From positions 1-62,365 of IMG/VR virus record IMGVR_UViG_3300012920_000037: a stretch of 62,365 nt of DNA; one strand, written 5' to 3'. Position numbers and translations under genes: made by a program. Positions 222 to 20,177 of this stretch are shown here, one piece after another. Each line of letters starts with the position of its first letter. Within the stretch, counting starts at the first letter, position 1. The stretch comes from a virus. The notes beneath the pieces were generated by a model. The model did not search any database. It saw only the letters and a list, made by a program, of their open reading frames with translations, and was not told where the DNA came from.

Positions 222-563
222 ATGAAACTTACTCAAACCAAACTAAAGCACATGATCTCAAGCATTTTGAATGAATCCAAAGACAGAGATGATCACGTTA
301 ACGCAGCATTCAATGCAATTGAATTTTACGAAGAGGGTTTTTCTGGAGAGGATCCCACAAGAAACTCCATGCAAGCTCTTGGAGGATTAGCTAATTTGAT
401 TAGCAAGGGAATCATAGCATGTATTAAACAAGGACCATCCCATGCGTCTGCTCAAATGGAGCTGATTAACAAGGCTAAAGAATTAGGTATTTTTGAAGAA
501 GTCGCCGAAGGCGTTATTGATATGACTAAAGAAGATGTGTCTCCGGAAATCAGACTAAAATGA
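222..563 (+). CDS. N-terminally tagged small protein, candidate packaged internal head protein
   Basis: 113 aa with a good GGAG Shine-Dalgarno. The first 19 residues (MKLTQTKLKHMISSILNES) are a variant of the helical tag found on at least eight other proteins here, ending in L-N-E|S at residues 16-19, which fits T4-type prohead protease sites. The rest is a predicted helical, acidic body (EEGFSGEDPTRNSMQALGGLANLI and onward) that I do not recognise. Its stop overlaps the start of the next gene (ATGA), so the two are translationally coupled. Packaging into the capsid is inferred from the tag only. Confidence 0.75.
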   Translation: MKLTQTKLKHMISSILNESKDRDDHVNAAFNAIEFYEEGFSGEDPTRNSMQALGGLANLISKGIIACIKQGPSHASAQMELINKAKELGIFEEVAEGVIDMTKEDVSPEIRLK

Positions 564-1192
564 AACTTACTGAAGCAATATTGAAACGAATGATCCTTGA
601 AGAAATGAACTCCGGCCTTCTCCAAGAAGCTGCGAAAGGACCACAAGATCTCCCAGAAGACGTATTCGTCAGAGTCTTTCATCAAGGACCAGATAAAAAT
701 TTAATTACCATACTCTTTACAGACAGAGATGGAAACTACATTCCTCCTGTTGCTAAGTCTGGAGAAAATAATCCAATCTATGGAGATGTTACCTTTAATT
801 TAAAAAGTACACATCTCGAGTGCGATAATTCTTCTGTGATTGCTGTAACGGAGGTAGCTGATGGCTGGGGACCGATGTTGTATGATATCGCTATGGAGAT
901 CGGCACAATGAGAGCAAATGGGCTAACACCAGACCGAAGATCCGTGTCTCCGGAAGCCCAAGATGTTTGGTGGAACTATCTTAATATGAGACCTGACGTC
1001 AAAGCGCACCAATTAGACAATGAGTATAACGAGTTGACTCCTGAAGATTCAGACAACTGTGTGCAGATGATGTCTAGAGAGCGAGCTGAGGACTACGGTG
1101 GAGAGTGGAAAGACAATGCTCTTTCAAAAAGATTTACAAAAGAAGTGACTGTATTAGATCAAATTCGAGATCAATTAATTTGGGAAATTTAA
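560..1192 (+). CDS. Tagged GNAT-fold protein, divergent member of a four-gene paralogue family
   Basis: 210 aa. The N terminus MKLTEAILKRMILEEM is the shared tag, followed by L-L-Q-E|A (residues 20-24), a gp21-type cleavage site. Residues 98-111 (EVADGWGPMLYDIA) correspond to GNAT motif A, the acetyl-CoA pyrophosphate loop and helix, and align with the same region of three genes at 17.7-20.2 kb. After it come GLTPDRR, a tryptophan-bearing helix and LTPEDSDNC, matching GLTSDR..A...W and PDPDDDC of the paralogues. This member lacks the PCIPxTFQV strand and has W instead of the usual G/R in the loop, so acetyltransferase activity is uncertain. It is the only copy far from the cluster. Confidence 0.6.
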   Translation: MKLTEAILKRMILEEMNSGLLQEAAKGPQDLPEDVFVRVFHQGPDKNLITILFTDRDGNYIPPVAKSGENNPIYGDVTFNLKSTHLECDNSSVIAVTEVADGWGPMLYDIAMEIGTMRANGLTPDRRSVSPEAQDVWWNYLNMRPDVKAHQLDNEYNELTPEDSDNCVQMMSRERAEDYGGEWKDNALSKRFTKEVTVLDQIRDQLIWEI

Positions 1193-1202
1193 AACTTTTT
1201 AC

Positions 1203-1231
1203 TTGACAAGCATACACATACGTGTTACATT
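1203..1231 (+). promoter_or_regulatory. sigma70-type promoter, copy 1 of 9
   Basis: TTGACA at 1203-1208, 17-bp spacer ending in GTGT, then TACATT at 1226-1231. It sits 20 nt upstream of the nucleotidyltransferase start, with a GGAGG between. The layout is identical to eight other copies in the window. Confidence 0.8.
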
Positions 1232-1250
1232 ATAAATACACGGAGGAAAT

Positions 1251-1766
1251 ATGCAATACACAGTTTTAATCCCAGGTGGTTTCAAACCACCTCATAAAGG
1301 TCACTACGACTATATCAAGTTTTATCTAGATAATCCTGACGTTGAGCGAGTGATTATGTTCTGCGGCGACAAAGAACGCGACGGAGTGACTTTAGAGCAT
1401 ACCGAGAAGATCCTCGAGATCTATGGATTACTATCTCATCCAAAGATGGATTACAGAAGAGCAACAGTGCGAGAAGGAAAGAAGAAAAACTTCACCAATC
1501 CTCTTGCTGACTGTTTTGATTGGGGCGACGAGAATACCAAACACCACTTCGGCCTTGCTTGCTCCGAGAAAGATTCGGGATATCAAGTATCGTTCGGTGA
1601 TTACTTTTACGGAAACGACAAGTACGTGCTCGTGCCCGTATTTAAAATGAATGACGTTATCTCAGCAACCCAATTCCGAGCAGCATTACAAAACAACGAA
1701 TCAATCGCAAAGTTTTTGCCCGAGGGGGTAAGTGAAGAAGAAATTAGGGCACTATTTATAGCATAA
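1251..1766 (+). CDS. HIGH-superfamily nucleotidyltransferase (cytidylyltransferase / NMN adenylyltransferase-like)
   Basis: 171 aa. PGGFKPPHKGHYDYI near the N terminus contains the H-x-G-H signature (H15, H18) of the HIGH nucleotidylyltransferases, which transfer AMP or CMP to a phosphate on substrates such as NMN, pantetheine-phosphate or glycerol-phosphate. ISATQFRAAL near residues 137-146 matches the C-terminal ISSTxxR-like phosphate-binding motif. The size fits a stand-alone domain. It has its own promoter and GGAGG site. NAD salvage is one possibility by analogy with other phages, but no partner gene such as a phosphoribosyltransferase is visible here, so the substrate is open. Confidence 0.75.
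   Translation: MQYTVLIPGGFKPPHKGHYDYIKFYLDNPDVERVIMFCGDKERDGVTLEHTEKILEIYGLLSHPKMDYRRATVREGKKKNFTNPLADCFDWGDENTKHHFGLACSEKDSGYQVSFGDYFYGNDKYVLVPVFKMNDVISATQFRAALQNNESIAKFLPEGVSEEEIRALFIA
1751..1758 (+). promoter_or_regulatory. ACTATTTA motif, candidate late promoter
   Basis: The octamer lies in the last codons of the nucleotidyltransferase gene, 30 nt before the ATG of the tagged membrane protein. The same octamer precedes several virion genes. Because this copy is coding, it could be chance. Confidence 0.4.
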
Positions 1767-1788
1767 TAGTTGTTATGGAGACAAACAA

Positions 1789-2208
1789 ATGAAACTTACA
1801 AAAAAAACATTAAAAAGAATTATCTTAGAGGAACTTAACGTAGTGTCCGAAGAAGAAAAGACACCAGAAGTTACTAAGGAACAAGATGCTGCTGCTAAAG
1901 AAATCGCCAAGAATCCAAAGCCGTTTCATGATGCCCTCTTTAAAGCCCTAGATGCTGACCCTGAGGTTCAAAAAATGCTTAGACAACAGAACGAGTCTAA
2001 CGATCCTTTTGAAGATTTTCCTGTGGCTACAACATATGCAGCAACGATGTCTCCAGTTATGGCCCTCGCCACAGGCCCACTCTTAGCAAAGGTTGCTGCC
2101 GCCGTCGGTGTAACCGCTGGTGTCGCTGGTGTTGGAACCATGGCTATTGGTGCTTTGGTGCCTCTTGCCCTTGCCTATCTTTACGATAAGAAAGGTGGTC
2201 GAATTTAA
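1789..2208 (+). CDS. Tagged glycine-zipper membrane protein
   Basis: 139 aa. It opens with MKLTKKTLKRIILEEL, the shared tag, here followed by an acidic VVSEEEKTPE stretch without a clean L-x-E|S site. After a hydrophilic helix comes a long Gly/Ala/Val-rich hydrophobic region (about residues 80-133) with GxxxG-like spacing and a short break at GVGTMAIGALV, followed by a KKGGR tail. This looks like a two-helix membrane hairpin or glycine zipper. A tag-bearing membrane protein could be an internal virion protein that inserts in the host membrane during DNA entry; that is inference. I recognise no named family. Confidence 0.65.
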   Translation: MKLTKKTLKRIILEELNVVSEEEKTPEVTKEQDAAAKEIAKNPKPFHDALFKALDADPEVQKMLRQQNESNDPFEDFPVATTYAATMSPVMALATGPLLAKVAAAVGVTAGVAGVGTMAIGALVPLALAYLYDKKGGRI

Positions 2209-2222
2209 TCTAAACTTTTTAC

Positions 2223-2251
2223 TTGACAAACCTTCTGTGATGTGTTACATT
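2223..2251 (+). promoter_or_regulatory. sigma70-type promoter, copy 2 of 9
   Basis: TTGACA at 2223-2228, 17-bp spacer ending in GTGT, TACATT at 2246-2251. It drives the primase gene; an AGGAGG site follows. Confidence 0.8.
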
Positions 2252-2268
2252 ATAAACAGGAGGACATT

Positions 2269-3204
2269 ATGATCGAGGACAAAAGAAAAATTGTGACCCA
2301 AGTGCTTGGGTCTTATTATCAAAAGGGCGATGAGCATTTGTATCATTGCCCTTATTGTAATCACCACAAAAAGAAAATGTCGGTGAACTTCGCAAATGGT
2401 TTTTTCAAATGCTGGATTTGCGATGAAAGAGGAAAGAACATTTACCGAATTGTAAGAAAGTTCGGCACATACCAGCAACGACAAAAGTATCTTGAACTAC
2501 AAGGCAGACTTGACCTTAACGAGTTCGAAGATCTCTTCAAAGAATTAAACAACGAAGAAGAGAAGCAGCAAATAGATTTGCCCGAAGAGTTCATCTCGTT
2601 ATGCAACAAAGATTTGCCGATGGAGACTACGGATGCATTTCGTTATTTATCATCTCGAGGTATTGGTCGTCGAGAAATATTAAAATGGAAGATTGGCTAT
2701 TGCAAGGAGGGACGCTATGCCGGAAGAATTATTATACCGTCGTTTGACGTGGAAGGAGATTGCAATTACTTCATTGCTCGCAGTTACGTTGGGCATTCTT
2801 ATAGGTACCTCAACCCTCCAGCAGACCGTGATATCGTTTTTAACGAACTGATGATTGATTGGGATGAACCTGTTATTCTTGTCGAAGGTGTCTTTGACGC
2901 AATTGCGGCAGGAGGTAACGCAATCCCCATCCTTGGCTCAACCTTGCGAGAACGCTCTCGTCTGTTTCAAGCCATTGCTGTACACGACACACCGGTCTAC
3001 ATGGCTCTTGATGGAGATGCCGAAAAGAAAGCAGAGTGGATCATTAAGTCCATGCTCAAGTATGACCTCGAAGTATTTAAGGTGCCCATTGACGAAGAAG
3101 ACGTATCGGAGATGGGAGTAGAAGAGTTCAAAGACAGACTACTTAGTTCTAGACAAATAAAGAATGAGATGTATTTCTTTGAGCAAATGTTGGAGAACAT
3201 TTAA
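2269..3204 (+). CDS. 61: DNA primase (T4 gp61-like, zinc finger plus TOPRIM)
   Basis: 311 aa. A zinc-binding module has Cys27, Cys30, Cys48 and Cys51 (CPYC...CWIC), as in CHC2/gp61-type primases. A TOPRIM domain shows VILVEGVFDAIAA (E206) and the acidic ALDGDAEKK (D248, D250), the metal-binding residues for RNA primer synthesis. The start at 2269 is chosen because AGGAGG lies just before it and the promoter -10 covers the alternative upstream ATG. No helicase domain is fused, so the phage should have a separate gp41-type helicase outside this window. The stop abuts the next ATG directly. Confidence 0.85.
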   Translation: MIEDKRKIVTQVLGSYYQKGDEHLYHCPYCNHHKKKMSVNFANGFFKCWICDERGKNIYRIVRKFGTYQQRQKYLELQGRLDLNEFEDLFKELNNEEEKQQIDLPEEFISLCNKDLPMETTDAFRYLSSRGIGRREILKWKIGYCKEGRYAGRIIIPSFDVEGDCNYFIARSYVGHSYRYLNPPADRDIVFNELMIDWDEPVILVEGVFDAIAAGGNAIPILGSTLRERSRLFQAIAVHDTPVYMALDGDAEKKAEWIIKSMLKYDLEVFKVPIDEEDVSEMGVEEFKDRLLSSRQIKNEMYFFEQMLENI

Positions 3205-3777
3205 ATGAAATTAACAGAAGCAAAATTAAGACTTATAATCAACGAAGTGATTAGCGAATCAATTGATGACCTAGGATCCTACAGAAAATATTTAGCAATG
3301 GACGATATATCTGTAGATTCTGAAGATTATGAAGACCACATAAAAGATGCATCAACTGGAAACTGTGGTAAATTCACCTTGACTTTATTGGTGAGATTGT
3401 TAGAATTAAGAGAAAAAGGAATCGTCAAAGACATTGACCTAATGATTCTCTATGATAAACAGACCGTTACCAATTCAGAAGGAATAAATAAAATTGAAGA
3501 CCTAATCGGATCCTTTGTTAATCACGCTTTTGTTTTTGCTGATGGGTTTTATTATGACGTCAATGGAAGATTTAACGAATCAGAACTATCTTCTCACTTA
3601 AGAGATTACACAGGCTCCATGGATGAGCCATTTTTAAATTCTTTTGAAGTAAATAATCTAAATGATGTTCAGAGATATCATAGTGTATTGAACGATATGG
3701 GCTCTCTAGATAATCGTAGTTGCTCTGGATATGAGAGTGCCGTTGAAGATATAATCATGAAAACATATTTTAATTAA
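3205..3777 (+). CDS. Tagged papain-like (Cys-His-Asp) hydrolase candidate
   Basis: 190 aa. The tag MKLTEAKLRLIINEV is followed by I-S-E|S (residues 16-19), a gp21-type site. The body has TGNCGKFTLTLL (Cys54 at a helix start), then VNHAFVFADGFYYDVNGR with His107 and Asp118. This order and spacing, a Cys-Gly at the N cap of a helix followed by His on a strand and an Asp/Asn on the next strand, is that of papain-like/NlpC/transglutaminase folds. Peptidase, amidase or transferase activity is all possible. It directly follows the primase with no gap. The catalytic assignment is by motif only. Confidence 0.6.
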   Translation: MKLTEAKLRLIINEVISESIDDLGSYRKYLAMDDISVDSEDYEDHIKDASTGNCGKFTLTLLVRLLELREKGIVKDIDLMILYDKQTVTNSEGINKIEDLIGSFVNHAFVFADGFYYDVNGRFNESELSSHLRDYTGSMDEPFLNSFEVNNLNDVQRYHSVLNDMGSLDNRSCSGYESAVEDIIMKTYFN

Positions 3778-3794
3778 AAAATAAATAAAAATAC

Positions 3795-3823
3795 TTGACA
3801 AGACAACTCCGACATGTTATATT
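3795..3823 (+). promoter_or_regulatory. sigma70-type promoter, copy 3 of 9
   Basis: TTGACA at 3795-3800, 17-bp spacer ending in ATGT, TATATT at 3818-3823, 21 nt before the start of the pol-beta-type nucleotidyltransferase gene. Confidence 0.8.
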
Positions 3824-3844
3824 AATAATAACACTGGAGGATAT

Positions 3845-4678
3845 ATGGGTGGAAATATTTTTAAAGATAAGGCAACGTCAATTACAAAAGATAGAGTTGC
3901 ACCAACGATCGAAGCATACAAGCGTACACTAGGCAAAATATTCCCAATGAAGGCACACTCTCTTTCATTCTTTGAACCAGTAGGTTCTGCTGGTAAGAAA
4001 GAAGTGTCTGGAGATTTAGATCTCGCTATTGATTGGACGCACATCGTACGATCGTTTACTTCTGATGAATTGCAGAAGTGGGATATTGAATATGATGAGT
4101 GGAATGACGCGTATACAAAGATCCACAAAAGATCCCGCACTGCGACATATCACATGAGCAAGATGCGTGCTTTATTATCTTTAATATCCGTAAAACTTGC
4201 GGAGAATGGAATACAATTAGGTGGAGATGTAACAGCCGGAAACATCTTCACATGCTTTCCACAGTATGACGAGAATGGACCAACAGATGACTACGTACAA
4301 ATAGACTGGATGGTCGGAGACATTGATTGGCTCACTTGGTCGTACTATTCTCATGGAGAGTATGGACTAAAAGGTTTACACAGGACGCAGTTCCTTGTCG
4401 CACTATTTTCAGAGATTGGATACACATTTAACCACTTTTCGGGCATAAAGAAGAAAAAGACAAAAGAGTGGCTAATTTCGAGTCCCGAGGATGCCCTACA
4501 ACTGCTTTCAGAGCACTACGGAATGGTAACACATAGCCAAACCCAAACGTTCGCTCAGCTCCATTCTTGGCTGTTGAACTGCGAATCAGGCTCTTATTTC
4601 AAGGTTATAAATCGATACAAAGAAATATTGAGAGTACAGAAACAAAATATTCCGAACGTGCTCACTCATACTATTTAA
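3845..4678 (+). CDS. Pol-beta-superfamily nucleotidyltransferase-like protein
   Basis: 277 aa. EPVGSAGKKEVSGDLDLAID contains G47-S48 followed by D57-x-D59, the G-S...D-x-D signature of the nucleotidyltransferase fold (as in MNT, poly(A) polymerase and CCA-adding enzymes), and YVQIDWMVGD supplies a third acidic strand (D154). The C-terminal half is helical. Substrates in this superfamily range from tRNA ends to proteins (AMPylation) and cannot be read from sequence. The gene lies immediately upstream of a tRNA and has its own promoter, so a link to tRNA handling is conceivable but unproven. GGAGG precedes the ATG. Confidence 0.65.
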   Translation: MGGNIFKDKATSITKDRVAPTIEAYKRTLGKIFPMKAHSLSFFEPVGSAGKKEVSGDLDLAIDWTHIVRSFTSDELQKWDIEYDEWNDAYTKIHKRSRTATYHMSKMRALLSLISVKLAENGIQLGGDVTAGNIFTCFPQYDENGPTDDYVQIDWMVGDIDWLTWSYYSHGEYGLKGLHRTQFLVALFSEIGYTFNHFSGIKKKKTKEWLISSPEDALQLLSEHYGMVTHSQTQTFAQLHSWLLNCESGSYFKVINRYKEILRVQKQNIPNVLTHTI

Positions 4679-4686
4679 TTAAACAT

Positions 4687-4762
4687 GGGGGTGTAGCTCA
4701 GTTGGGAGAGCAACTGCCTTGCACGCAGTAGGTCGCAAGTTCGACTCTTGTCATCTCCACCA
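4687..4762 (+). tRNA. tRNA-Ala (anticodon UGC), CCA encoded
   Basis: A full 76-nt cloverleaf can be folded by eye: acceptor stem GGGGGTG/CATCTCC, D arm GCTC...GAGC, anticodon stem ACTGC/GCAGT with loop CTTGCAC (anticodon TGC), T arm GCAAG-TTCGACT-CTTGT, and an encoded 3' CCA. The third acceptor pair is G-U, the identity element read by alanyl-tRNA synthetase. An intrinsic terminator follows within 40 nt. Confidence 0.95.
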
Positions 4763-4800
4763 TTTAAAAACTTAGTTCTTTGGAGCTCTCACACTTTTCG

Positions 4801-4824
4801 CCTCTCTTCGGAGAGGTTTTTTTT
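4801..4824 (+). terminator. Intrinsic terminator after tRNA-Ala
   Basis: CCTCTC-TTCG-GAGAGG stem-loop with a stable tetraloop followed by eight T. It ends nine bases before the Smr gene start. Confidence 0.9.
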
Positions 4825-4833
4825 GGAGTCAAA

Positions 4834-5043
4834 ATGATAACACTAGATCTTCACGGATTACGACATGAAGACGCCAAACGCAAACTTGAACTATTTATTA
4901 ATGACCATTGGGGTGAAATGCTCAAGATTATAACTGGTCACTCAAGTTCCATGAGGGACATTGTTTCCTCGACAGCAGAGTCATACAATCTTGATTTTGC
5001 ATGTGAGCCATTAGGCACATACATAATAATAAAGTCACACTAG
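4834..5043 (+). CDS. Smr-domain protein (small stand-alone)
   Basis: 69 aa. MITLDLHGLRHEDAKRKLE opens with the D-L-H-G motif of Smr domains, and IITGHSSSMRDIV corresponds to the conserved G-x-G/H loop (usually TGxGxHS). Smr domains bind or cut nucleic acids, for example at collided ribosomes or on branched DNA. The start at 4834 is preferred over an upstream in-frame ATG because that earlier start would run through the terminator hairpin, and GGAG sits just before 4834. The second loop is degenerate (GHSS rather than GxGxHS), so nuclease activity is uncertain. Confidence 0.7.
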   Translation: MITLDLHGLRHEDAKRKLELFINDHWGEMLKIITGHSSSMRDIVSSTAESYNLDFACEPLGTYIIIKSH

Positions 5044-5051
5044 GAGAAACT

Positions 5052-5963
5052 ATGTTGCTATCACTTTTATTACTTGCTTGCGGTGGAGACATCGGAATTA
5101 GAACTGTCGATAAAATACAAGTCGACGATACTGGTTACGAAATCATCGACACAGCATACCCTGAGCCTGCTGCAGAACCTTCAACAGAACCTGCGGCTGA
5201 GCCAAGCACGGAACCATCTAGCGAACCTCTAAACGGAACTGTTGGGCTTGTAAATTTTAATTTGGAACAAGTTGCCTGTCAAGCATGCATGGGAGTAAGT
5301 CAAGAAATTACAATTCAATTGGATGCAAAATTTCACGAGAAAATAAACGAAACACATCCAACGTGGTTCCCGCCCGCCGGACAGTGTACAACAAACACCA
5401 ATCCCTTGCAGATCAATGTGGCTACAAAGAATGTTGGGCAATCCCTGAATATTATTGGTAATCCAAACTCATTTACTGCTTTTAACAACGGTGCAAACAC
5501 ATACACAGGATTTATTCAAGAGTATCAATATGATCGAGACACGAATATGCAAGTACATTTGCAAGACGGTTCAGCCTTCCAGTTTCGCTCTATCCACGGA
5601 TTTGATTTTGTAGAACCCTATGAGATGCGCTATGTCGACATTTCTTACGCCTTCGCAGCGGTAGTATCTAAATCTGGAACACAGTTCCAATGGGGGCCTG
5701 CCGGAGGACCTGATCTGTTCAACATTACAATCGCGACATATTCTCCAGACGGCAGTCAACTGCTTGGTGTGATATCATGCTCGACCGCAGACAGCGGATA
5801 CTATGTGTTTGACGGATCATACTTTCAATCGTATCCAACATGGTCTTTGACTGCTATTCACATGACGAGATTTTCTCAACAGAGAGTCCCATATGAAGGC
5901 TTGAATGGTTATGTTGATGTACAATTAGAGTGGTCTGTTGTAGGAACAGGACATATTGAGTAA
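5052..5963 (+). CDS. Phage-encoded lipoprotein with EP-rich linker
   Basis: 303 aa. MLLSLLLLACGG is a minimal lipoprotein signal peptide with lipobox L-L-A-C; it lacks basic residues in the n-region. It is followed by a repetitive linker (EPAAEPSTEPAAEPSTEPSSEP) and then a beta-rich domain of about 230 residues with CQAC and CTTN cysteines and many aromatic residues. I know no family. Such EPS/EP linkers after a lipobox are frequent in Myxococcota-type surface lipoproteins. A surface lipoprotein could block adsorption of other phages (superinfection exclusion), but this is inference. Confidence 0.65.
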   Translation: MLLSLLLLACGGDIGIRTVDKIQVDDTGYEIIDTAYPEPAAEPSTEPAAEPSTEPSSEPLNGTVGLVNFNLEQVACQACMGVSQEITIQLDAKFHEKINETHPTWFPPAGQCTTNTNPLQINVATKNVGQSLNIIGNPNSFTAFNNGANTYTGFIQEYQYDRDTNMQVHLQDGSAFQFRSIHGFDFVEPYEMRYVDISYAFAAVVSKSGTQFQWGPAGGPDLFNITIATYSPDGSQLLGVISCSTADSGYYVFDGSYFQSYPTWSLTAIHMTRFSQQRVPYEGLNGYVDVQLEWSVVGTGHIE

Positions 5964-6005
5964 CTTCCGCTAGACCCGATACTAGTTACTAGTGGAGGGT
6001 TTCAT

Positions 6006-6212
6006 GTGGATGATATTGGGATCGGCTCTTTAGTTATTTTCCTTGAAGATTTCATGAGCGATACAATACCAAATGTCGGTATTGTATTGTCTGTGATTTC
6101 GTTTGATGAATTAACTGGGGATGAACTCGGTCAAGATATCACATGGTACTCCGTTATGTTTGGAGAAGTTGATATTGTTGTATCATCGGAGATGGTTATT
6201 TTACTAAATTAA
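6006..6212 (+). CDS. Small beta-barrel (SH3/KOW-like) protein, GTG start
   Basis: 68 aa, read from GTG because the overlapping ATG two bases earlier is in another frame; GGAGGG is seven bases upstream of the GTG. The pattern GSLVIFLED...VGIVLSVI..........WYSVMFGEVDIVVSSEMVILL (alternating strands, turn glycine, final strand) is that of small SH3-like barrels. Four more such proteins lie at 57.5-59.3 kb. Function unknown; nucleic-acid binding is common in the fold. Confidence 0.55.
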   Translation: MDDIGIGSLVIFLEDFMSDTIPNVGIVLSVISFDELTGDELGQDITWYSVMFGEVDIVVSSEMVILLN

Positions 6213-6213
6213 C

Positions 6214-6242
6214 TTGACAATCATTCGCCAACGTGTTATATT
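6214..6242 (+). promoter_or_regulatory. sigma70-type promoter, copy 4 of 9
   Basis: TTGACA at 6214-6219, 17-bp spacer ending in GTGT, TATATT at 6237-6242. It rules out the in-frame ATG at 6214 as the start of the next gene. Confidence 0.8.
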
Positions 6243-6264
6243 ATATTATACATTGGAGGATGAA

Positions 6265-6585
6265 ATGAACAAATTTATTGACGAAGGCTTAAAGGCTGGG
6301 TATGAATTTATTATTATAGAACCACAAGAGGGCTACAATGAAGCAATTGTGGCTTTTGATAGAGGCAGACTTGTATATGATACAGAAATGCTTATGGACG
6401 CCATGAGGAAGTATCACCATTGGGAATACGGCACTGCTATAACTTGGTTTGAATATAACACGTTAGCTCTCACACATATGGAGGGTGGACCATTATTTTT
6501 TGAACCAGAGGAGAAATATTACTTGACACATGAAGACAAACCTGTTACATTAGAAGTACGCAAGAAAATCATGGAGGACAAATGA
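6265..6585 (+). CDS. Hypothetical protein (106 aa) upstream of the gp47/46 fusion
   Basis: The start is set by GGAGG at 6254-6258 and by the promoter upstream. The product MNKFIDEGLKAGYEFIIIE... is acidic and mixed alpha/beta, with several aromatic residues (HHWEYGTAITWFEY). I recognise no family. Its 3' end overlaps the next gene by four bases and contains an internal promoter (6523-6551), so the codons YYLTHEDKPVTLE double as regulatory sequence for the recombination gene. Confidence 0.65.
   Translation: MNKFIDEGLKAGYEFIIIEPQEGYNEAIVAFDRGRLVYDTEMLMDAMRKYHHWEYGTAITWFEYNTLALTHMEGGPLFFEPEEKYYLTHEDKPVTLEVRKKIMEDK
6523..6551 (+). promoter_or_regulatory. sigma70-type promoter, copy 5 of 9, inside a coding region
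   Basis: TTGACA at 6523-6528, 17-bp spacer ending in CTGT, TACATT at 6546-6551, 30 nt before the gp47/gp46 start. Its geometry is identical to the intergenic copies although it lies in codons of the preceding gene. Confidence 0.7.
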
Positions 6586-11438: not shown

Positions 11439-11999
11439 ATGAGCAAAGAAACATTAGAAATTATTGAAGGACTCGCTCAAGCTGCTGCTAACGGATCATA
11501 CGATGGTGGACAGCATATGGAGAACTACTCTCTTGATGGGCAGATTCGTAAGACCGGTCTAAAAAGAGAAGAAGGAATTCCTCTTCTTGACAAACGTTGC
11601 ATTGACGGATTCAAAGTCAAGTTCTATGGAGACTCTATGATCATCAACTATCAATCAGATGTTAGAATGAAAGAACTCAAAGATAACGGATTTGAAAACG
11701 ACATCGTTCGCACCATCAATGAAGTAAAGAAGTTCTTGCAAAAAGAATACAAAACAATTACTGGTAAGTCCGTATCGTTGACCGCGAAAGGTGACCCACA
11801 GATTATCATCCAGTCAACATCACACGTTCGCACATTTGTTCAAGCGTATCAACACTATAAGATTGGAAGCCTTAAAATGGATCAGATCGTCGCTCCTTCA
11901 GAAGATACCACTCGAGATATTACAAAAAAGTTTTTGGAAGCAGCAAAAGCAAAGCGTCCTCAGAACGAAAAGATCAAGGCATCAGACAATCAAAAATGA
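11439..11999 (+). CDS. Conserved-looking hypothetical upstream of the terminase
   Basis: 186 aa, alpha/beta, with a central strand-rich part (FKVKFYGDSMIINYQSDV) and a basic C terminus. No motif identifies it. Its place just before the terminase large subunit makes a small terminase (gp16-like) or head-completion role possible, but it lacks a clear DNA-binding helix-turn-helix or coiled coil, so I leave it unnamed. Its stop overlaps the next gene's start (ATGA). Confidence 0.6.
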   Translation: MSKETLEIIEGLAQAAANGSYDGGQHMENYSLDGQIRKTGLKREEGIPLLDKRCIDGFKVKFYGDSMIINYQSDVRMKELKDNGFENDIVRTINEVKKFLQKEYKTITGKSVSLTAKGDPQIIIQSTSHVRTFVQAYQHYKIGSLKMDQIVAPSEDTTRDITKKFLEAAKAKRPQNEKIKASDNQK

Positions 12000-12556
12000 A
12001 ACTTACAAAAGAAACACTAAGGCGAATCATCAAAGAGGAGCTCGAGTTATCCTTGCAAGAGCAAGATATTAATGAAGGGTTCTTCGATTCTTTCTTTGGC
12101 AGAGGCGAAAAGGAAACCGTGTCTTTACCTGGTTCACAAAAAGGAGAATCTGCTTTCTTAAGTCGACCAGGTAGCATTATCAGAAACAGCCTTATTAAGA
12201 CTCAAAATGAAGATAGTTTGGAAGATATGGTGCACCTCTTTAGAGACCAGATCCCTTCCGACGAGATAGAACTATTCAACCAAATAATTGCAATTATCGC
12301 CACATTAAAAAAAGAGCATAGTGAATACGACAAAATTTTAAAAAATTATTATCAATGGAGCAAATTAGGCCGACGACAGCTCTCTAGATGGTGGGATTGG
12401 GTTAAGGACCCACCAAGACTTAGCAGAGCTACCAGGAAAACCATGAAAGCCTACGAGAGCCTTGTGCAGATTGATCCTGAGATCGCTGAGGCATTGGTAA
12501 AATATAAGCCAAAAGAAGTAATTACTCAAAATCCAGACTTCACTCGACGTTTTTAG
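11996..12556 (+). CDS. N-terminally tagged protein upstream of terminase
   Basis: 186 aa. MKLTKETLRRIIKEELELSLQE carries the tag, with two possible cleavage sites, L-Q-E|Q (20-23) and I-N-E|G (25-28). After it come FFDSFFGRG, a serine/glycine-rich linker and a helical body with tryptophans (YYQWSKLGRRQLSRWWDWVKD). I do not recognise it. The tryptophan/arginine-rich amphipathic stretch could contact membrane or nucleic acid. Coupled to the preceding gene by a four-base overlap. Confidence 0.7.
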   Translation: MKLTKETLRRIIKEELELSLQEQDINEGFFDSFFGRGEKETVSLPGSQKGESAFLSRPGSIIRNSLIKTQNEDSLEDMVHLFRDQIPSDEIELFNQIIAIIATLKKEHSEYDKILKNYYQWSKLGRRQLSRWWDWVKDPPRLSRATRKTMKAYESLVQIDPEIAEALVKYKPKEVITQNPDFTRRF

Positions 12557-12564
12557 GCGGGCAA

Positions 12565-14142
12565 ATGAAACTAACCAAAAATGAAATTGTTAAAGAACTT
12601 GTAAAGTGCGGTAAGGACCCTCAATACTTCATCGATAACTATTGCAAGATTTCGCACCCAATGCATGGTCAAATTCCATTCAAGACTTATGACTATCAAA
12701 AGGAGATGCTTAAGAACTTTAACGACTATCGTTTTAACGTAATCTTAAAAGCAAGGCAGCTCGGGATCTCAACCATCTCGGCTGCTTATGTTGCTTGGTT
12801 CATGCTATTTCATCGAGAAAAGAACGTTCTCGTTATCGCAACTAAACTATCCACAGCAACAAACCTTGTAAAGAAAGTCAAGATGATCTTCCGTAACCTT
12901 CCACAGTGGATGTTGATTGCGAAGATTGCTGTTGACAACAAACAATCATTTGAATTAACAAATGGCTCTCAAGTAAAAGCCGGAACCACATCAGGAGATG
13001 CTGGTCGTTCGGAAGCATTATCATTGCTCATTATAGACGAGGCAGCGTTCGTTGACGGACTCGAAGAGCTTTGGACGGGTCTTTACCCTACTTTGTCTAC
13101 AGGAGGGCGCTGCATCGCTCTGAGCACCCCTAACGGCGTTGGAAATTGGTTCCACAAAACCTATACCGAATCTGAGAACTCAATGAACGATTTCTTTCCA
13201 ACAAAATTAAACTGGGATGTTCACCCAGACAGAGATGATGAATGGTACGAGAAAGAAACTAGAAACATGTCCAAGAGACAGATCGCACAGGAGTTGGAGT
13301 GCTCCTTTAATGCGTCCGGGGAAACTGTTATCAATCCTGAAGATTTACAAAGATTGCATGAGTGTGTAACAGATCCACTATACAGAACAGGGTATGACCG
13401 AAACTATTGGATCTGGGAGAAGTATCAAGAAGGCGTGCCGTACTTGTTGGTTGCTGACGTTGCTAGAGGCGATGGCGCAGACTTTAGTTGTTTTCATGTG
13501 TTGAGAATAGACACCATGACTGTAGTTGCTGAATATCAAGGTAAACCAGATCTCGACATGTACGCTGGAATATTGTACTCTGCTGGTAATGAATATGGAT
13601 CATGTCTTTTAGTGGTGGAGAACAATGGTATTGGTATTGCTGTCCTAGAAAAGCTAAAAGAAATGAACTACAGCAAGATCTATTATTCCATTAAGTCAAC
13701 ACACGAGTATGTGGAGTCATATCTAGCCGAAGGCGACGCTAGAGCCGTATTAGGCTTTACAACATCAACAAAGACAAGACCGCTAATTGTAGCCAAATTG
13801 GAGGAGTACGTTAGAAACAAACTAATTAATATACACTCTAACCGTGTTTTTCATGAACTAAAAACTTTTATTTGGCACAACGGCAAGCCACAAGCAATGC
13901 GCTCTTACAATGACGATTTGGTTATGTCCCTGGCTATAGCATGCTGGGTTCGAGACACAGCCCTATCAGAAAACGAAAGAGACATGGCTTACAAAAAGGC
14001 GATGCTAGGTGGATTGATGAAGTCGACAACAACGATGAATACTCAAATCAAAGGTCAAAAGTTTTACAATGAAACGTTCTACGAAAAACACGAGGAGGAA
14101 ATAAAGAAGACAAAAGAATTCTTCTGGATATACAAAGGATAA
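12565..14142 (+). CDS. 17: Terminase large subunit (gp17)
   Basis: 525 aa. It combines an ATPase and a headful nuclease. The ATPase has the variant Walker A KARQLGIST (residues 62-70), Walker B LLIIDEAAF (D158-E159) and coupling motif ALSTPNG. The RNase H-fold nuclease has VADVARGDGADFS (D298), VVENNG and NDDLVMSLA (D451). The length is close to other T4-type large terminases. The first residues MKLTKNEIVKELVKCGKDP resemble the tag superficially but continue into the normal N-terminal domain. The portal gene follows after 3 bases. Confidence 0.95.
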   Translation: MKLTKNEIVKELVKCGKDPQYFIDNYCKISHPMHGQIPFKTYDYQKEMLKNFNDYRFNVILKARQLGISTISAAYVAWFMLFHREKNVLVIATKLSTATNLVKKVKMIFRNLPQWMLIAKIAVDNKQSFELTNGSQVKAGTTSGDAGRSEALSLLIIDEAAFVDGLEELWTGLYPTLSTGGRCIALSTPNGVGNWFHKTYTESENSMNDFFPTKLNWDVHPDRDDEWYEKETRNMSKRQIAQELECSFNASGETVINPEDLQRLHECVTDPLYRTGYDRNYWIWEKYQEGVPYLLVADVARGDGADFSCFHVLRIDTMTVVAEYQGKPDLDMYAGILYSAGNEYGSCLLVVENNGIGIAVLEKLKEMNYSKIYYSIKSTHEYVESYLAEGDARAVLGFTTSTKTRPLIVAKLEEYVRNKLINIHSNRVFHELKTFIWHNGKPQAMRSYNDDLVMSLAIACWVRDTALSENERDMAYKKAMLGGLMKSTTTMNTQIKGQKFYNETFYEKHEEEIKKTKEFFWIYKG

Positions 14143-14145
14143 AAA

Positions 14146-16089
14146 ATGGCCCGCAACGATAGAAACCCTAACAACAATCAAAATGATTTATTTAAAGCTT
14201 TAACAAGAATGTTCTCGGGGCCAATTACCCAACGACGAACACAGTCCGGACGACAACTAAGGCGCCGGCACCTTGATATTTACGCCAAAAGATTCAAGTC
14301 AGCATCGGGAAAGCAGTTCAAGAAGACTGAATACAATCCAATGAACATCATGACCCTGAACATGATTTCAAACAGAAATCGTTCAGAACGATATGTTGAC
14401 TTTGACCAAATGGAATTTACACCAGAGATCGCATCATCTCTAGATATTTACGCAGACGAGATGACGACTCACTCGTCACTTACTCCAATGCTACACATCA
14501 AATGCCCGAATGATGAAATCAAGTATATGCTTCATTCCTTATACTATAACACAATGAACATTGAACATAATTTGTTTGGTTGGGCAAGAACAATGTGCAA
14601 ATACGGAGATATGTTTTTGTATCTCGACATTGACGAAGAGAAAGGTTTGCAAAACTGTATCGGTCTTCCGCCACAAGAAGTTGAGAGACTAGAAGGAGAA
14701 GATCCTACAAACCCAAATTATGTACAGTTTCAGTGGAACAACGCCGGCCTTACTTTGGAGAATTGGCAAATCGCACACTTTCGTGTTCTTGGACACGACA
14801 AGCATGCTCCATACGGAACATCCGTTCTAGAGCCCTCTAGACGCATCTGGAGACAACTTACACTGCTTGAAGATGCAATGATGGCTTACCGTATCGTAAG
14901 AGCTCCTGAGCGTCGTATATTCAAGATTGATGTTGGTGGCGTTGCACCACAAGACGTTGAGCAATACATGCAGAAGATCATGACTCAAATGAAGCGTCAC
15001 CAAGTTGTTGATCCACAAACTGGTCGTGTTGACTTGCGTTACAACCCGTTATCAATCGAAGAAGATTATTTTATCCCTATTCGTGGAGGACAGTCATCCA
15101 CCGACATCATCAACCTTCAAGGTGGAGCAATGACCGCAACGATCGAAGATGTCAAGTATCTGCGAGATAAATTGTTTTCTGCCTTGAAAGTTCCACAGTC
15201 TTACCTGTCGATGGGTGAAGGATCTGGTACTGAAGACAAGACAACTTTGGCACAAAAAGATATTAGGTTCGCAAGAACCATTCAAAGACTTCAACGAGTC
15301 ATTCTATCAGAACTCGAGAAGATTGGAATTATTCACTTATATACTCTCGGATATCGTGGAGACGACTTATTAAACTTTAAACTGTCTCTGAATAATCCTT
15401 CTAAGATTGCCGAGATGCAAGAGCTTGAACATTGGAAGACCAAGTTCGACATTGCTGGTGCTGCTACCGAAGGATTCTTCTCCCGTCGTTGGATTACTGA
15501 AAATCTTCTTGGACTATCTCAAGACGAATACCTCAGAATGCAACGTGAGATGTTCTCCGATAAGAAGTTTATGGCTGCTCTTGAAGCTGCTGCCCAACCA
15601 CCTGCTGAGGGTGGCGGAGACGCTGGTGGAGGCCTCGGAGGAGATCTTGGAGGTGGAGACCTAGGCGGAGACTTAGGAGGCGATCTAGGTGGAGATTTGG
15701 ACCTCGGAGGGGATGATGCTGGAGGAGGTGATACACCTGCTGCGCCTGCTGGGGGAGATGACAAAGATGAAGGTGACCTCTTAGCTGAACCTCCTGCGAA
15801 GCGTGATGACGATTCAAAACGTCGAGGGCCATACAAGAAGCACAAGATTACATATCGCAAAGGCGGATTCTCAAAACAAATGAAGAATCAAGCATTTAGC
15901 GGAGAAGTTCGAGGATCAACATCTCGAACGACATTTCCGGGCAAAGTTGGCTTTGGAGGAATGGACTCATTAGCTCGAGGAGTATTTGAGGGCGATGTGA
16001 AAGAAGAAGAGAAACTATTTAGCATTGATGCAGAGATCAAGACTTTGCTAGAATCACTAAACAAAAAGGAAGAATCCGATGAAACTTAA
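14146..16089 (+). CDS. 20: Portal protein (gp20)
   Basis: 647 aa, right after gp17. The body matches T4-type portals: FTPEIASSLDIYADEMTT, GTSVLEPSRRIWRQLTLLEDAMMAYRIVRAPERRIFKIDVG and LKVPQSYLSMGEGS. It forms the dodecameric portal vertex through which DNA passes and on which the prohead is initiated. The C-terminal region (about 487-540) is a Gly/Asp/Leu low-complexity tract (GGDLGGDLGGDLDLGGDD), followed by a basic KRRGPYKKHK segment. A near-identical tract occurs in the scaffold protein gp22 of this phage. The 3' end overlaps the next, tagged, gene by 11 bases. Confidence 0.93.
   Translation: MARNDRNPNNNQNDLFKALTRMFSGPITQRRTQSGRQLRRRHLDIYAKRFKSASGKQFKKTEYNPMNIMTLNMISNRNRSERYVDFDQMEFTPEIASSLDIYADEMTTHSSLTPMLHIKCPNDEIKYMLHSLYYNTMNIEHNLFGWARTMCKYGDMFLYLDIDEEKGLQNCIGLPPQEVERLEGEDPTNPNYVQFQWNNAGLTLENWQIAHFRVLGHDKHAPYGTSVLEPSRRIWRQLTLLEDAMMAYRIVRAPERRIFKIDVGGVAPQDVEQYMQKIMTQMKRHQVVDPQTGRVDLRYNPLSIEEDYFIPIRGGQSSTDIINLQGGAMTATIEDVKYLRDKLFSALKVPQSYLSMGEGSGTEDKTTLAQKDIRFARTIQRLQRVILSELEKIGIIHLYTLGYRGDDLLNFKLSLNNPSKIAEMQELEHWKTKFDIAGAATEGFFSRRWITENLLGLSQDEYLRMQREMFSDKKFMAALEAAAQPPAEGGGDAGGGLGGDLGGGDLGGDLGGDLGGDLDLGGDDAGGGDTPAAPAGGDDKDEGDLLAEPPAKRDDDSKRRGPYKKHKITYRKGGFSKQMKNQAFSGEVRGSTSRTTFPGKVGFGGMDSLARGVFEGDVKEEEKLFSIDAEIKTLLESLNKKEESDET
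15610..15745 (+). repeat. GGDL-coding repeat in portal gene
   Basis: Degenerate tandem units of about 12-15 bp (GGAGG-rich) encode (G-G-D-L)n. A stretch around 15685-15718 is almost base-for-base identical to one near 32036-32070 in the scaffold gene. Confidence 0.8.
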
Positions 16090-16297
16090 CAAAGAAACAC
16101 TGAAGCAAATTATCAAAGAAGAGCTGGAATCTATAATGGACGAGTCCATGTATATGGACGCAACTCCCTATGAGCTTGGATATGATGCTGGCTTTGTGAA
16201 TATGCCTGCGTCTGTTGATATGATGGATAATGAAGAATACATGCGAGGTTACAACGAAGGCTTAGCAGCAGGTGGACACCCACCTTTAAGATACTAA
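16079..16297 (+). CDS. N-terminally tagged 72-aa protein
   Basis: MKLNKETLKQIIKEELESIMDES is the tag with M-D-E|S at residues 20-23. The mature part would be about 50 residues (MYMDATPYELGYDAGF...YMRGYNEGLAAGGHPPLRY), acidic and tyrosine/glycine-rich, with no known fold. It starts inside the last codons of the portal gene. Candidate internal head peptide, perhaps comparable in size to T4 prohead-core small proteins; the role is inferred from the tag and from the position between portal and protease. Confidence 0.7.
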   Translation: MKLNKETLKQIIKEELESIMDESMYMDATPYELGYDAGFVNMPASVDMMDNEEYMRGYNEGLAAGGHPPLRY

Positions 16298-16316
16298 AAA
16301 CAACTAGGAAGTCAAC

Positions 16317-17138: not shown

Positions 17139-17748
17139 ACTAACAGGTGAAGAAGAAGTTGAAGAAACAGAAGGTTCAACAATTAAAGTAAAGATTGTCA
17201 AAGCTGATTCTGAAGGTATGCCGGAAGAAGATGGTGTAAAAATTGAAGTTGTTGAGAAAGACAGAATCGAAGCCAAACTTAAGCTACGGTCTGCTATCAA
17301 TGGCGACTTAATGATTCTAGACCACAAAGACATCGACATCGTTATTAAGCAAGGAGATAAGAAGATTATAGCTTTTGCTAAAGAGACTTTGTCGGATTTA
17401 GTATACGGAGCAGAAGCTCGATTGCTTGAGTATTTGAGAAGAAATGGCTTGATTGAAATTGATTCTATCCAAGGCGGTAACATCTATGGATCTTTGGAGG
17501 GCAAATTGCAAGAAGGAAAAAAAACTGTTGAAGTCACACTGATGAAAATCTCTGAATGGATGGAAACAGAAGAGCCAATGATGTCTGGACGAACAGGGTA
17601 TGACGACATGCAAGATGATCACTTGTTGTCACCAGACGGAGAATTCTCAACAGAACTCGGAGAAGTACCTCACGAAGAGGAAAAGGGGTCAATCCGACAA
17701 CACAACCTTTTCGCTCCATATTTATATGGGAGATATACCTATGAGTAA
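17122..17748 (+). CDS. Hypothetical head-module protein
   Basis: 208 aa. The N-terminal half is beta-rich and acidic (IKLTGEEEVEETEGSTIKVKIVKADSEG), and the middle part reads DLMILDHKDIDIVIKQGDKKIIAFAKE, followed by an acidic, low-complexity tail. No recognised motif. It lies between an unknown head gene and the GNAT cluster, overlapping genes on both sides, so it belongs to the head transcript. Function unknown. Confidence 0.55.
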   Translation: MPINIKLTGEEEVEETEGSTIKVKIVKADSEGMPEEDGVKIEVVEKDRIEAKLKLRSAINGDLMILDHKDIDIVIKQGDKKIIAFAKETLSDLVYGAEARLLEYLRRNGLIEIDSIQGGNIYGSLEGKLQEGKKTVEVTLMKISEWMETEEPMMSGRTGYDDMQDDHLLSPDGEFSTELGEVPHEEEKGSIRQHNLFAPYLYGRYTYE

Positions 17749-18772
17749 CTATCACCTATTAGTGGAGAGTTGGAGAAATTTCTTTCGTGCTCAAGTAAGA
17801 GGTGCGAGACCTAATGATGGAGCTCGCATGCGCTCACCTGAAGAAAAGTTCAACGAGAAGCACGATCAATTCTTTTACAAAAAATCTCTTTGGGGATATC
17901 GTTCAGACGAGCAAAAGTACAGCGAACCAAAACTAGTGTCTGAGGAAGAGATGATAAAAATAATCACGAACCCTCGGAACAATACTCACATTATAGTCAG
18001 GCCGGCCTCGCTATCTAAATTTGGTGAATTTTACGATTGGAGAAAATTTAAATTTTTAAATTCAAAAGCAGAAGAAATTATAAAACAGAGAGAAGAAGAA
18101 AAGCGAAAAGAAGAGGAACGTCGACAAGCTCGATCCAAGAAACAAATGGATCGTGTGAAAACCGATTCGGAACTAGCTCTAGCAAGTATCAATCTAGGCA
18201 CTGTGGACAATTTAGTTCTGTACCACACAAATATTATGGAAAGAGATGGGCTTCCTTTGGTTATAGGAATGATAGCTCTTGATGGTATGCACGGTCCTTG
18301 CATTCCAAACACTTTTCAAGTAAAATTTTCTGCTGTTAACAGGAAATTTCAACGACAAGGTTTTGGATCAATACTATATCGATTAGCAGCAGCTCACGCA
18401 AAAGTTAAAAAAAACGGAGGTATATCGTCAGATCACACCGCTGGAACTAGTAAAGATGCTGCTCGGAGGTGGGCTGCGATCGACAAAGATCCTGAATTCT
18501 ATAAAAGATCTACTAAAGGTGGTAGCGATACATTTGATTATGGTGGATACAATACGCCGGATGATCCTATGGATGATTGCGAAGATTTTACAAGCAATGG
18601 TGCTGTTACCAATCACAGTTACGGAGTGAGTGATAAAACTGTTGGAGTGTACAATGACCTTATATATGCTGATGAGTCTGGTAGAGGTTATGGGCCGAAA
18701 GATAGCACTGATCTTAACGACAAGGCTACCAGGGTATTCTCAGATAGCTATTCACATCGGACACGCGAATGA
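17741..18772 (+). CDS. GNAT-fold protein with type-B N-terminal tag (paralogue 1 of cluster)
   Basis: 343 aa. The start at 17741 is chosen because it yields the tag MSNYHLLVESWRNFFRAQ, with L-V-E|S at residues 7-10. A charged coiled coil (residues 112-140) is followed by a C-terminal GNAT-like domain: GPCIPNTFQVKFSAVNRKFQRQGFGSILYRLAAAHA, where Q-R-Q-G-F-G is a textbook acetyl-CoA-binding loop (motif A), then SSDHTAGTSKDAARRWAAID and DDPMDDCEDF. The last two elements are shared with the neighbours and replace the usual GNAT C-terminal strands. Likely an N-acetyltransferase; the target is unknown. The start overlaps the preceding stop. Confidence 0.7.
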   Translation: MSNYHLLVESWRNFFRAQVRGARPNDGARMRSPEEKFNEKHDQFFYKKSLWGYRSDEQKYSEPKLVSEEEMIKIITNPRNNTHIIVRPASLSKFGEFYDWRKFKFLNSKAEEIIKQREEEKRKEEERRQARSKKQMDRVKTDSELALASINLGTVDNLVLYHTNIMERDGLPLVIGMIALDGMHGPCIPNTFQVKFSAVNRKFQRQGFGSILYRLAAAHAKVKKNGGISSDHTAGTSKDAARRWAAIDKDPEFYKRSTKGGSDTFDYGGYNTPDDPMDDCEDFTSNGAVTNHSYGVSDKTVGVYNDLIYADESGRGYGPKDSTDLNDKATRVFSDSYSHRTRE

Positions 18773-19473
18773 ATAATCATAATCTAATAATGGAAGGTTG
18801 GAGAAAGTTTCTTAAGGAATCCAGATCAGCTGTAACCGAAATACAAGGAAAGCCGATCAACATGTTTTTCTATTCTAGAAACTCACCCGAGTTTAAAATA
18901 ATTCTTTATATTTTAGACGAGAAAGCTGGTGGTAGAAAGATTGCTAGAGTTATTGGGGGTGTAGAGTGTGTTGAGATCGAAGAGCCTTGTATACCCAAAA
19001 CATTGCAAGTTGGAACGTCATATAGAGACTCTGCCTTTGCCGGAATGGGACTTGGACCTCTTTTATATGATCTAGCTTTTTTTATAGCACAATCTATGGG
19101 ATATGGATTAACATCAGACCGAGAGATTGGGTCTAAGAGAAGCGCTAGAGACAGGTGGGAAAAAATACAATCAAGCCCTGATTATGAAAAACAAAGAACA
19201 AAAGATGGTAATGATAAATTTGATTACTATGGAGAAACACCAGATCCAGATGATGATTGCACAAAAGATGAATACGAGAATTCAAATGCAACAGATCATT
19301 CTTTCATCAAGAAAGATACCGGAAATACTCACGATGTACTCATGAAGCTTGAAGCTAATCATATGGACTATTTAGATAGCATTGGCGACACTTCAGCAGT
19401 ACAAAGATTCTTAAAAAATCTTAAGAGTCAATCAAATGACCTTTTTAACGATGAATACGATATGGCGACTTAA
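18769..19473 (+). CDS. GNAT-fold protein with type-B N-terminal tag (paralogue 2 of cluster)
   Basis: 234 aa. MNNHNLIMEGWRKFLKES contains two possible gp21 sites, I-M-E|G (7-10) and L-K-E|S (15-18). EEPCIPKTLQVGTSYRDSAFAGMGLGPLLYDLAFFIA (about residues 71-107) holds the GNAT motif A loop AGMGLG. Then come GLTSDREIGSKRSARDRWEKIQ, TPDPDDDC and a C-terminal DHSF, all conserved in the family. Coupled to the preceding paralogue by ATGA. Probable product of tandem duplication. Confidence 0.7.
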   Translation: MNNHNLIMEGWRKFLKESRSAVTEIQGKPINMFFYSRNSPEFKIILYILDEKAGGRKIARVIGGVECVEIEEPCIPKTLQVGTSYRDSAFAGMGLGPLLYDLAFFIAQSMGYGLTSDREIGSKRSARDRWEKIQSSPDYEKQRTKDGNDKFDYYGETPDPDDDCTKDEYENSNATDHSFIKKDTGNTHDVLMKLEANHMDYLDSIGDTSAVQRFLKNLKSQSNDLFNDEYDMAT

Positions 19474-19478
19474 TTACG

Positions 19479-20177
19479 ATGAAATCTTACAAACTACATA
19501 AAAACTTTAGAAAATTTCTTTTAAACGAAAGTGCAAACACAGAAGGACTATGCCTTTATCACAAAGGCGAAGGAACGAACTATCAAAGAATAATAATCTA
19601 CAAACCTGTACCAGATGAAGCAATTAAGATGAACCGCCAATATATAGACACCGTTATAATTGGAGCTATCACGTTTGACAACACAAAAAATGTTGTCGGA
19701 GAACCATGCATTCCGGAAACTTTTCAAGTCAGCACTGTCTTTACTCACAAAGACTATGAAGGCCAAGGGTTTCAAAAGCTGTTGATGGATTGTGCGTTCT
19801 ATGCACTAGGAAAAGAAAATAAGGGACTAACCTCAGATCAATATACCGGAACTAAACGTCGAGCTGAGAAAGCGTGGGTCAAAATTCAAAAATCAAGCGA
19901 ATATGAAAAACAGCAAACCAGAGCAGGCAACGATCAATTTGATTATTCAGACGCAACACCGGATCCGGATGATGATTGCAATATGCCGATGAAGTTTCCT
20001 TCAACTATGCACAGCTTTAAAAAGAAAAACTCATCAGATGGCAAAGCACAATACGACACAATGAAAACTAATCACAAAACTTTTGTTAACAAGTTAGGCA
20101 GAAACAAAGGCGCTTTTGAAAATATGCTGAAAAATAGATCAGTAGAAGATTTTAGAGTAAGATTCCGCGGACTATAA
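19479..20177 (+). CDS. GNAT-fold protein with type-B N-terminal tag (paralogue 3 of cluster)
   Basis: 232 aa. MKSYKLHKNFRKFLLNES is the tag with L-N-E|S at residues 15-18. GEPCIPETFQVSTVFTHKDYEGQGFQKLLMDCAFYAL (75-110) contains GQGFQK, a motif A loop in which the final glycine is replaced by Q, so cofactor binding may differ. GLTSDQYTGTKRRAEKAW and TPDPDDDC follow, then HSFKKK. Five bases separate it from the previous paralogue, and the membrane protein gene starts directly after its stop. Confidence 0.7.
   Translation: MKSYKLHKNFRKFLLNESANTEGLCLYHKGEGTNYQRIIIYKPVPDEAIKMNRQYIDTVIIGAITFDNTKNVVGEPCIPETFQVSTVFTHKDYEGQGFQKLLMDCAFYALGKENKGLTSDQYTGTKRRAEKAWVKIQKSSEYEKQQTRAGNDQFDYSDATPDPDDDCNMPMKFPSTMHSFKKKNSSDGKAQYDTMKTNHKTFVNKLGRNKGAFENMLKNRSVEDFRVRFRGL

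Follow-up and report, generated by a model that had tools for sequence, protein, structure and literature searches.

The 62,365-nucleotide stretch of viral DNA analysed here (IMG/VR record IMGVR_UViG_3300012920_000037, positions 1–62,365; hereafter the window) carries four related genes on its plus strand, which begin at positions 560, 17741, 18769, and 19479 and are named by these starts. The question raised by the locus is what such a set of acetyltransferase-like proteins, each starting with a short tag, does for a phage. We favor, at a probability of about 60%, the explanation that the four genes encode GNAT-fold head cargo that would be loaded by means of the tag, freed by the prohead protease, ejected, and then acylate host or defence targets. 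A first-pass annotation of the window had already suggested virion-borne acetyltransferases; as a whole, that interpretation is partly supported.

Four related genes and their predicted fold

The four genes had been described as one family, and open reading frames (ORFs) were indeed found at all four starts (560–1192, 17741–18772, 18769–19473, and 19479–20177), all mutually homologous. When 18769 was used as the query within the window, the other three members were recovered with E-values of 4e-34, 6e-21, and 4e-6. Judged by sequence, the relatedness of the four ORFs is far in excess of chance. They belong to two branches, A (17741, 18769, and 19479) and B (560), which were split with full support in the tree and were joined by profile comparison with a probability of 98.8% (E 6.5e-17, 149 columns). 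The start at 17741 is an internal ATG inside a longer mechanical ORF (17600–18772), and it is the likely start because the tag begins there.

The sequence motifs quoted in the first-pass annotation were all present, varying by copy. The 560 protein (210 residues) has the loop VADGWGPMLYD, the motif GLTPDR...A...W, and the Asp-rich box EDSDNC, with cysteines at residues 88 and 167. The 17741 protein has the loop FQRQGFGSILY, GISSDH...A...W, and DPMDDC, preceded by an additional N-terminal region of about 115 residues. In the 18769 protein (234 residues; Cys 74 and Cys 164) the corresponding motifs are AGMGLG, GLTSDR...A...W, and PDPDDDC, and in the 19479 protein (232 residues) EGQGFQ, GLTSDQ...A...W, and PDPDDDC. 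A PCIP box occurs in three members (PCIPNTFQV in 17741, PCIPKTLQV in 18769, PCIPETFQV in 19479), and 560 is without it. The region at residues about 30–115 is unique to the 17741 type and is followed by a charged stretch, KQREEEKRKEEERRQARSKKQ.

The 18769 protein was modeled by AlphaFold2 with 34 relatives (predicted local distance difference test, pLDDT, 85.7; predicted template modeling score, pTM, 0.83). When the model was compared with the PDB by Foldseek, all fifty among the matches listed were acetyltransferases, most of them with a probability near 1. VIA-align gave matches covering residues 20–189, with Z 8.9 for GCN5 over 123 residues, 8.0 for TacT3, and 7.5–7.8 for NatD, Naa80, and AtaT. 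The core of subfamily A in this model consists of strands 2–4, the P-loop, helix 3, strand 5, and helix 4 of the GNAT fold. Against PDB sequences, the A4 profile found 21 matches, all acetyltransferases, the top one being PAI 1, titled acetyltransferase, PaiA. The Pfam family Acetyltransf_1 was matched by 7 of 16 A members (best 2.4e-5); 17741 matched it with E 0.0024 and a score of 18.6, under the Pfam cut-off of 20.7, and no match to Acetyltransf_1 or Acetyltransf_7 was obtained for 560 and 18769. Subfamily A is thus predicted to have a clear GNAT fold.

For subfamily B the case is weaker, and the model suggests a divergent GNAT-like fold. The 560 model (pLDDT 88.9) gave its best VIA values with NatD (Z 7.4) and GCN5 (Z 7.2), which are too low to exclude a chance arrangement, and a PDB profile search with branch B alone gave no match. 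The reading of 560 as a GNAT protein therefore comes mainly from its homology to A. Structure prediction and comparison thus gave the GNAT-like fold that had been anticipated and not another one, 560 being divergent, and the window proteins had no match to ADP-ribosyltransferases (ARTs). The GLTSDR..A...W helix had been taken, together with the Asp-rich box, for a C-terminal extension foreign to standard GNAT enzymes; in the model this motif lies in strand 5 and helix 4 of the GNAT core itself. What does go beyond the core is the Asp-rich box with its cysteine and the sequence after it, including in subfamily A two C-terminal helices (residues 187–232 of 18769).

In the tree, 17741, 18769, and 19479 each have their own orthologues in other uncultured phages, and therefore the three-gene set predates this contig. 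The ratio of nonsynonymous to synonymous substitution rates (dN/dS) was 0.05–0.22 for the three A genes, indicating that all three are maintained by selection; for 560 it was 0.16 in one computable comparison. None of the four window proteins matched a family above cut-off in PHROGs, Pfam, or NCBIfam. Three entries of the first hidden Markov model list (L007_1636, L011_3712, and L011_2347) had entered it via the tag alone and were dropped as family members.

N-terminal tags and the predicted prohead protease site

All four proteins start with a short helical tag that ends in L/I-x-E↓(S/A), where the arrow marks the predicted cut. The tags are MKLTEAILKRMILEEMNSGLLQE↓A for 560 (560–628, with the predicted prohead-protease site after residue 23, E23 being nearly invariant across branch B), MSNYHLLVE↓S for 17741 (17741–17767), MNNHNLIMEGWRKFLKE↓S for 18769 (18769–18819, with a predicted helix at residues 4–17 of low pLDDT), and MKSYKLHKNFRKFLLNE↓S for 19479 (19479–19529). 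In T4, gp21 cleaves after L/I-x-E, and IPIII needs no more than ten N-terminal residues for entry into the head (PMC9026906). The site of the tags is the same motif as the gp21 site and as that of the T4 capsid-targeting propeptides described there.

When the N-termini of the family were examined, [LI]xE[SAG] was found within the first 32 residues in 44 of 54, and [LI]xE in 53 of 54. Shuffled N-termini gave 4.8 ± 2.1 such sites (maximum 14 in 1000 shuffles), and windows taken from the protein bodies gave 5 in 285. Of the window's 12 tagged genes, 11 carried the site, as against 5 of 44 others, a comparison that is partly circular as the tagged set was picked by tag shape. Bodies with no relation to one another follow similar tags, in 12 genes of the window and in 30, 17, and 9 ORFs of the loci L058, L057, and L059, respectively. 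A fusion protein of another contig (L036:3431-5371) has an internal LLDE↓AMKTAADLPED site directly before its B domain, which would fit a polyprotein processed by a prohead protease.

The tag strings that were tested were not found in open-access papers. One tag peptide, searched against phage records, matched only a 484-kb uncultured phage, in four places (E 0.4), besides weak matches in Streptomyces phages (E 10); a second peptide gave no match in these records.

The genomic context agrees with a head location. The A genes belong to a tightly packed series, in which neighbors overlap or almost touch, between a T4-type portal gene (14146–16089, plus strand; phrog_213, E 7e-74) at the upstream end and a prohead maturation protease gene (22121–22741, plus strand; phrog_207, E 1e-60), the presumed tag cutter, at the downstream end. 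The major head protein (32738–34498, plus strand; phrog_138, E 9e-72) has a gp23-like propeptide in which LRE↓S, at residue 59, is a candidate site. In 15 of the 16 A-bearing loci of other contigs, the A genes are accompanied by a portal and/or protease of the window type; L011 shows none. The packaging tag of the first-pass annotation was thus found as an N-terminal module that ends in a site of the prohead-protease type, and packaging through this cleavable tag is well supported by sequence. Operon position, common tags, and neighboring genes likewise favor the virion-borne delivery that had been proposed.

Proposed route to the host and competing explanations

As the operon context suggests, the proteins would be synthesized late, the three A genes being in one tight operon with portal and protease. 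The amphipathic N-terminal tag would act as a capsid-targeting sequence and dock the protein in the prohead core, where the protease would cleave after L/I-x-E and release the body inside the head; these two steps are well supported by the sequence. Likeness to T4 suggests that the body would then leave the head with the DNA. In the weakest step, it would transfer an acyl group from coenzyme A (CoA) to a host protein or a defence component of the new host, the paralogues differing in their targets, so that take-over or counter-defence would be under way ahead of phage gene expression.

The active site was compared with motif A, R/Q-x-x-G-x-G/A. The loop of 17741 (Q-R-Q-G-F-G) is canonical, those of 18769 (A-G-M-G-L-G) and 560 (V-A-D-G-W-G) are without the R/Q, and that of 19479 (E-G-Q-G-F-Q) is altered at the first and last positions. 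Loss of the acetyl-CoA pocket in all four copies is thus not what was seen: the CoA loop is canonical in 17741, and G-x-G or G-x-Q is retained in the others. The signature [GA][LIM]x[SPAC]D followed by A-x-x-x-W in helix 4 was present in 44 of 44 aligned sequences. In canonical GNATs, the position four residues after this alanine is usually the general-acid tyrosine, which is common but not obligatory. Acetyl transfer to host targets by these proteins is a plausible prediction.

Two cysteines, one ahead of strand 4 and one in the Asp-rich box, occur together in 34 of 34 A4 rows; in A5 both are found in 23 of 28 rows, a single one in 1, and neither in 4. Co-loss of the pair gave 2e-4 in a Fisher test by count, but a tree-based sign test gave p of about 0.5, with too few independent events. 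In that run the first cysteine was out of register in the rows of subfamily A, and the pair counts as an observation only.

Several results weigh against the proposed acylating cargo. Foldseek gave no confident GNAT match for the 560 model (best E 0.16), and the protein is too divergent for a sequence match to GNATs. The canonical Q-x-x-G-x-G occurs only in 17741, so some or all copies may be catalytically altered. The Ala+4 residue of helix 4 is Trp, not Tyr, in all 44 aligned sequences, a correspondence taken from the motif and not from superposition. A tblastn search with three proteins of the window and one of branch B gave no match in 50,697 phage records. Presence in the virion is a prediction from sequence and context. 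The weakest part is the predicted chemistry: the fold appears to be that of an acyltransferase, yet its active site departs from the usual one, and nothing points to a particular target or substrate of the predicted acyl transfer.

Some of these features would suit a different role, in which the proteins are prohead-core or internal structural proteins and an exapted GNAT fold serves, in the manner of T4 gp67/gp68 or IPIII, for packing, as a scaffold, or as a DNA condenser; the proteins would then catalyze nothing once the cell is infected. In the T4 gene order, gp67/gp68 occupy the interval between portal and protease, the place taken here by the A genes. The invariant Trp for the usual Tyr, the loop altered in three of four copies, the added Asp-rich box, and the additional pair of C-terminal helices are also consistent with a structural role. 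However, copy number and the set of paralogues differ among close relatives, and the same kind of tag is found on clear enzymes (zeta toxin, HD), where structural filler would have no need of it. Moreover, B genes can lie far from the head genes (in G001, the portal is near 123 kb and the B cluster at 250–262 kb), and the canonical CoA loop of 17741 is under purifying selection (dN/dS 0.20–0.22). We consider this main rival unlikely; the most likely function is that host or defence proteins are modified early.

A narrower form of the favored explanation is that the cargo consists of packaged anti-defence acyltransferases whose substrate would be a defence component or incoming DNA or RNA, and not general host proteins. 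The neighboring genes form an arsenal of nucleotide- and protein-modifying enzymes, and separate orthologous paralogues, patchy across phages, fit an arms race. Modification of DNA by a phage protein is known from Mom. There is also a precedent in AcrVA5, cited in PMC7552054, which acetylates Cas12a. On the other side, there is no direct pointer to any target, and the A paralogues are conserved in this phage group and are not fast-evolving (dN/dS 0.05–0.22); the restriction to defence is thus possible but doubtful. Ordinary acetyltransferases, expressed late and acting late in the infected cell with an incidental N-terminal helix, would explain the late operon and would resemble intracellular GNATs of other phages, such as Rac of phiKMV-like phages (PMC7552054). 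Such enzymes would not account for a conserved L/I-x-E↓(S/A/G) tag site far above shuffles, for the recurrence of the tag before many bodies that are not related, or for the matching site in the capsid protein, and we regard this explanation as very improbable.

Known systems, relatives, and other tagged genes

GNAT domains of phage polyvalent proteins were predicted in 2017 to be packaged and injected, one published family being typically beside an ART domain (Iyer et al., PMC5512222); the kind is therefore already known, and the variant is new. An ART neighbor is seen for the B domain of L040/L041, but not for the four genes of the window. By description, the polyvalent GNATs are RimI-like domains in large multidomain proteins (PMC5512222), whereas those of the window and its relatives are mostly single-domain, separately tagged genes. 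B is, moreover, without a Pfam acetyltransferase match, and the Asp-rich box with its cysteine and the A-x-x-x-W signature are common to the family.

The parallel with T4 Alt drawn in the first-pass annotation holds for delivery: Alt and IPI–IPIII have a short N-terminal propeptide that leads into the prohead core and is cut after L/I-x-E, and the cargo is ejected with the DNA (PMC9026906). It fails for the enzyme, since Alt is an ADP-ribosyltransferase and the fold predicted here is GNAT-like. The tag sequences also differ, and T4 has few such cargo genes, whereas the window has 12 tagged genes and a relative has 30 tagged ORFs within 20 kb. Rac is, like the proposed cargo, a phage GNAT directed at host take-over (PMC7552054); it is not described there as packaged, the main text being without mention of virions. 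The GNAT core has some of its closest solved folds in GCN5, NatD, and Naa80 (PDB), but identity is below 20%, and the window proteins differ by the Tyr-to-Trp change, the Asp-rich box, the paired cysteines, and the C-terminal helices.

More surprising than the GNATs is the tag-addressed arsenal of the relatives. We put forward, at somewhat less than even odds, that in uncultured T4-like and jumbo phages a few interchangeable N-terminal tags load dozens of separate enzymes into one head, forming a phage secretome readable from sequence, with this GNAT family (altered active site, conserved cysteine pair) among its most duplicated members. The proposed cargo would comprise GNAT-fold, ADP-ribosyltransferase-like, zeta-toxin-like, HD, and 2H-phosphoesterase-like proteins and many of unknown kind. 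If this is true, the tag would be a rule for listing the virion-injected effectors of uncultured phages, a class otherwise known mainly from proteomics of cultured virions. Acyl transfer, so far predicted within polyvalent proteins, would be added to the activities that T4-type heads carry as separately tagged cargo, and heterologous assays could then test which proteins phages inject at time zero.

Such clusters were seen in two jumbo-phage contigs. The 273-kb contig of L015 (G001) contains ten B matches, nine of them at 250–262 kb, and 20 kb of it holds 17 ORFs with M-x-x-L-R-x-Y-I-R-type tags. The 305-kb contig of L054 has, within 20 kb (L058, G010:C5:186001-206000), 30 ORFs that carry one of two tags, MKITKRQLRRIIKE... 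or MKHLRQYIRQILLTE...; the set includes a zeta toxin (E 2e-12) and an HD-domain protein, both next to family-B copies, of which there are at least three. This contig has a T4-type portal, which identifies it as a T4-like phage contig despite its bin, Methylococcaceae bacterium TMED69. To judge from motifs or weak matches only, some tagged bodies in relatives are GNAT-like and one is ART-like.

One protein of L040/L041 has ART-PolyVal after a B domain (E 1e-10). The locus also encodes a 1519-residue polyprotein (1760–6319) with RVASRF/Y motifs repeated between its domains, one of which is another family-B domain; two domains were judged by eye to contain HExxH, a further one is GNAT-like (R-G-K-G-F-G), and the end is ParB_N-like (E 0.024). 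Fusions of about 640 residues in L034 and L036–L038 join family B to a nucleotidyltransferase domain (NTP_transf_2, E 3e-4); their tag, MKRQLQTFKEFIEE↓A, is T4-like, and a second site, LLDE↓A, lies inside the protein. A further family-B gene (L053:4998-5606) was found on a WOR-3 bacterium chromosome contig, near lipoyl-synthesis-like genes and with an 808-residue ORF upstream; it may be a prophage remnant or mark an assembly junction.

The other tagged genes of the window are all on the plus strand. The gene at 222–563 (MKLTQTKLKHMISSILNE↓S) overlaps 560 by 4 bases, and in L014 its counterpart is fused to a B domain (292-residue ORF). A small protein is encoded at 1789–2208 (MKLTKKTLKRIILEEL, no strict site), a protein of unknown body at 3205–3777 (MKLTEAKLRLIINEVISE↓S), and two further tagged proteins at 11115–11435 (MKLNKETLKRIIKEELEAVMNE↓S) and 11996–12556 (MKLTKETLRRIIKEELELSLQEQDINE↓G), the latter ahead of the large terminase gene (12565–14142, plus strand; phrog_2, E 1e-53). 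The small operon protein at 16079–16297 (MKLNKETLKQIIKEELESIMDE↓S) overlaps the portal gene, and 21100–22110 (VSTNKKTLFESWKRFLNE↓A) encodes another unknown body. The product of 20606–21103 (MKITNEQLKQIIKEELSAVLGE↓G), a candidate fellow cargo, is 2H-phosphoesterase-like (PF08302, E 0.019, under cut-off). It has two HxT-type motifs, HHMTI and PHVTIAI, and an orthologue at L007:5840-6337, and is possibly a packaged nucleotide or RNA phosphodiesterase, a candidate for anti-signaling. Directly after the 560 gene lies an untagged cytidylyltransferase-like ORF (1251–1766; phrog_395, E 0.0095).

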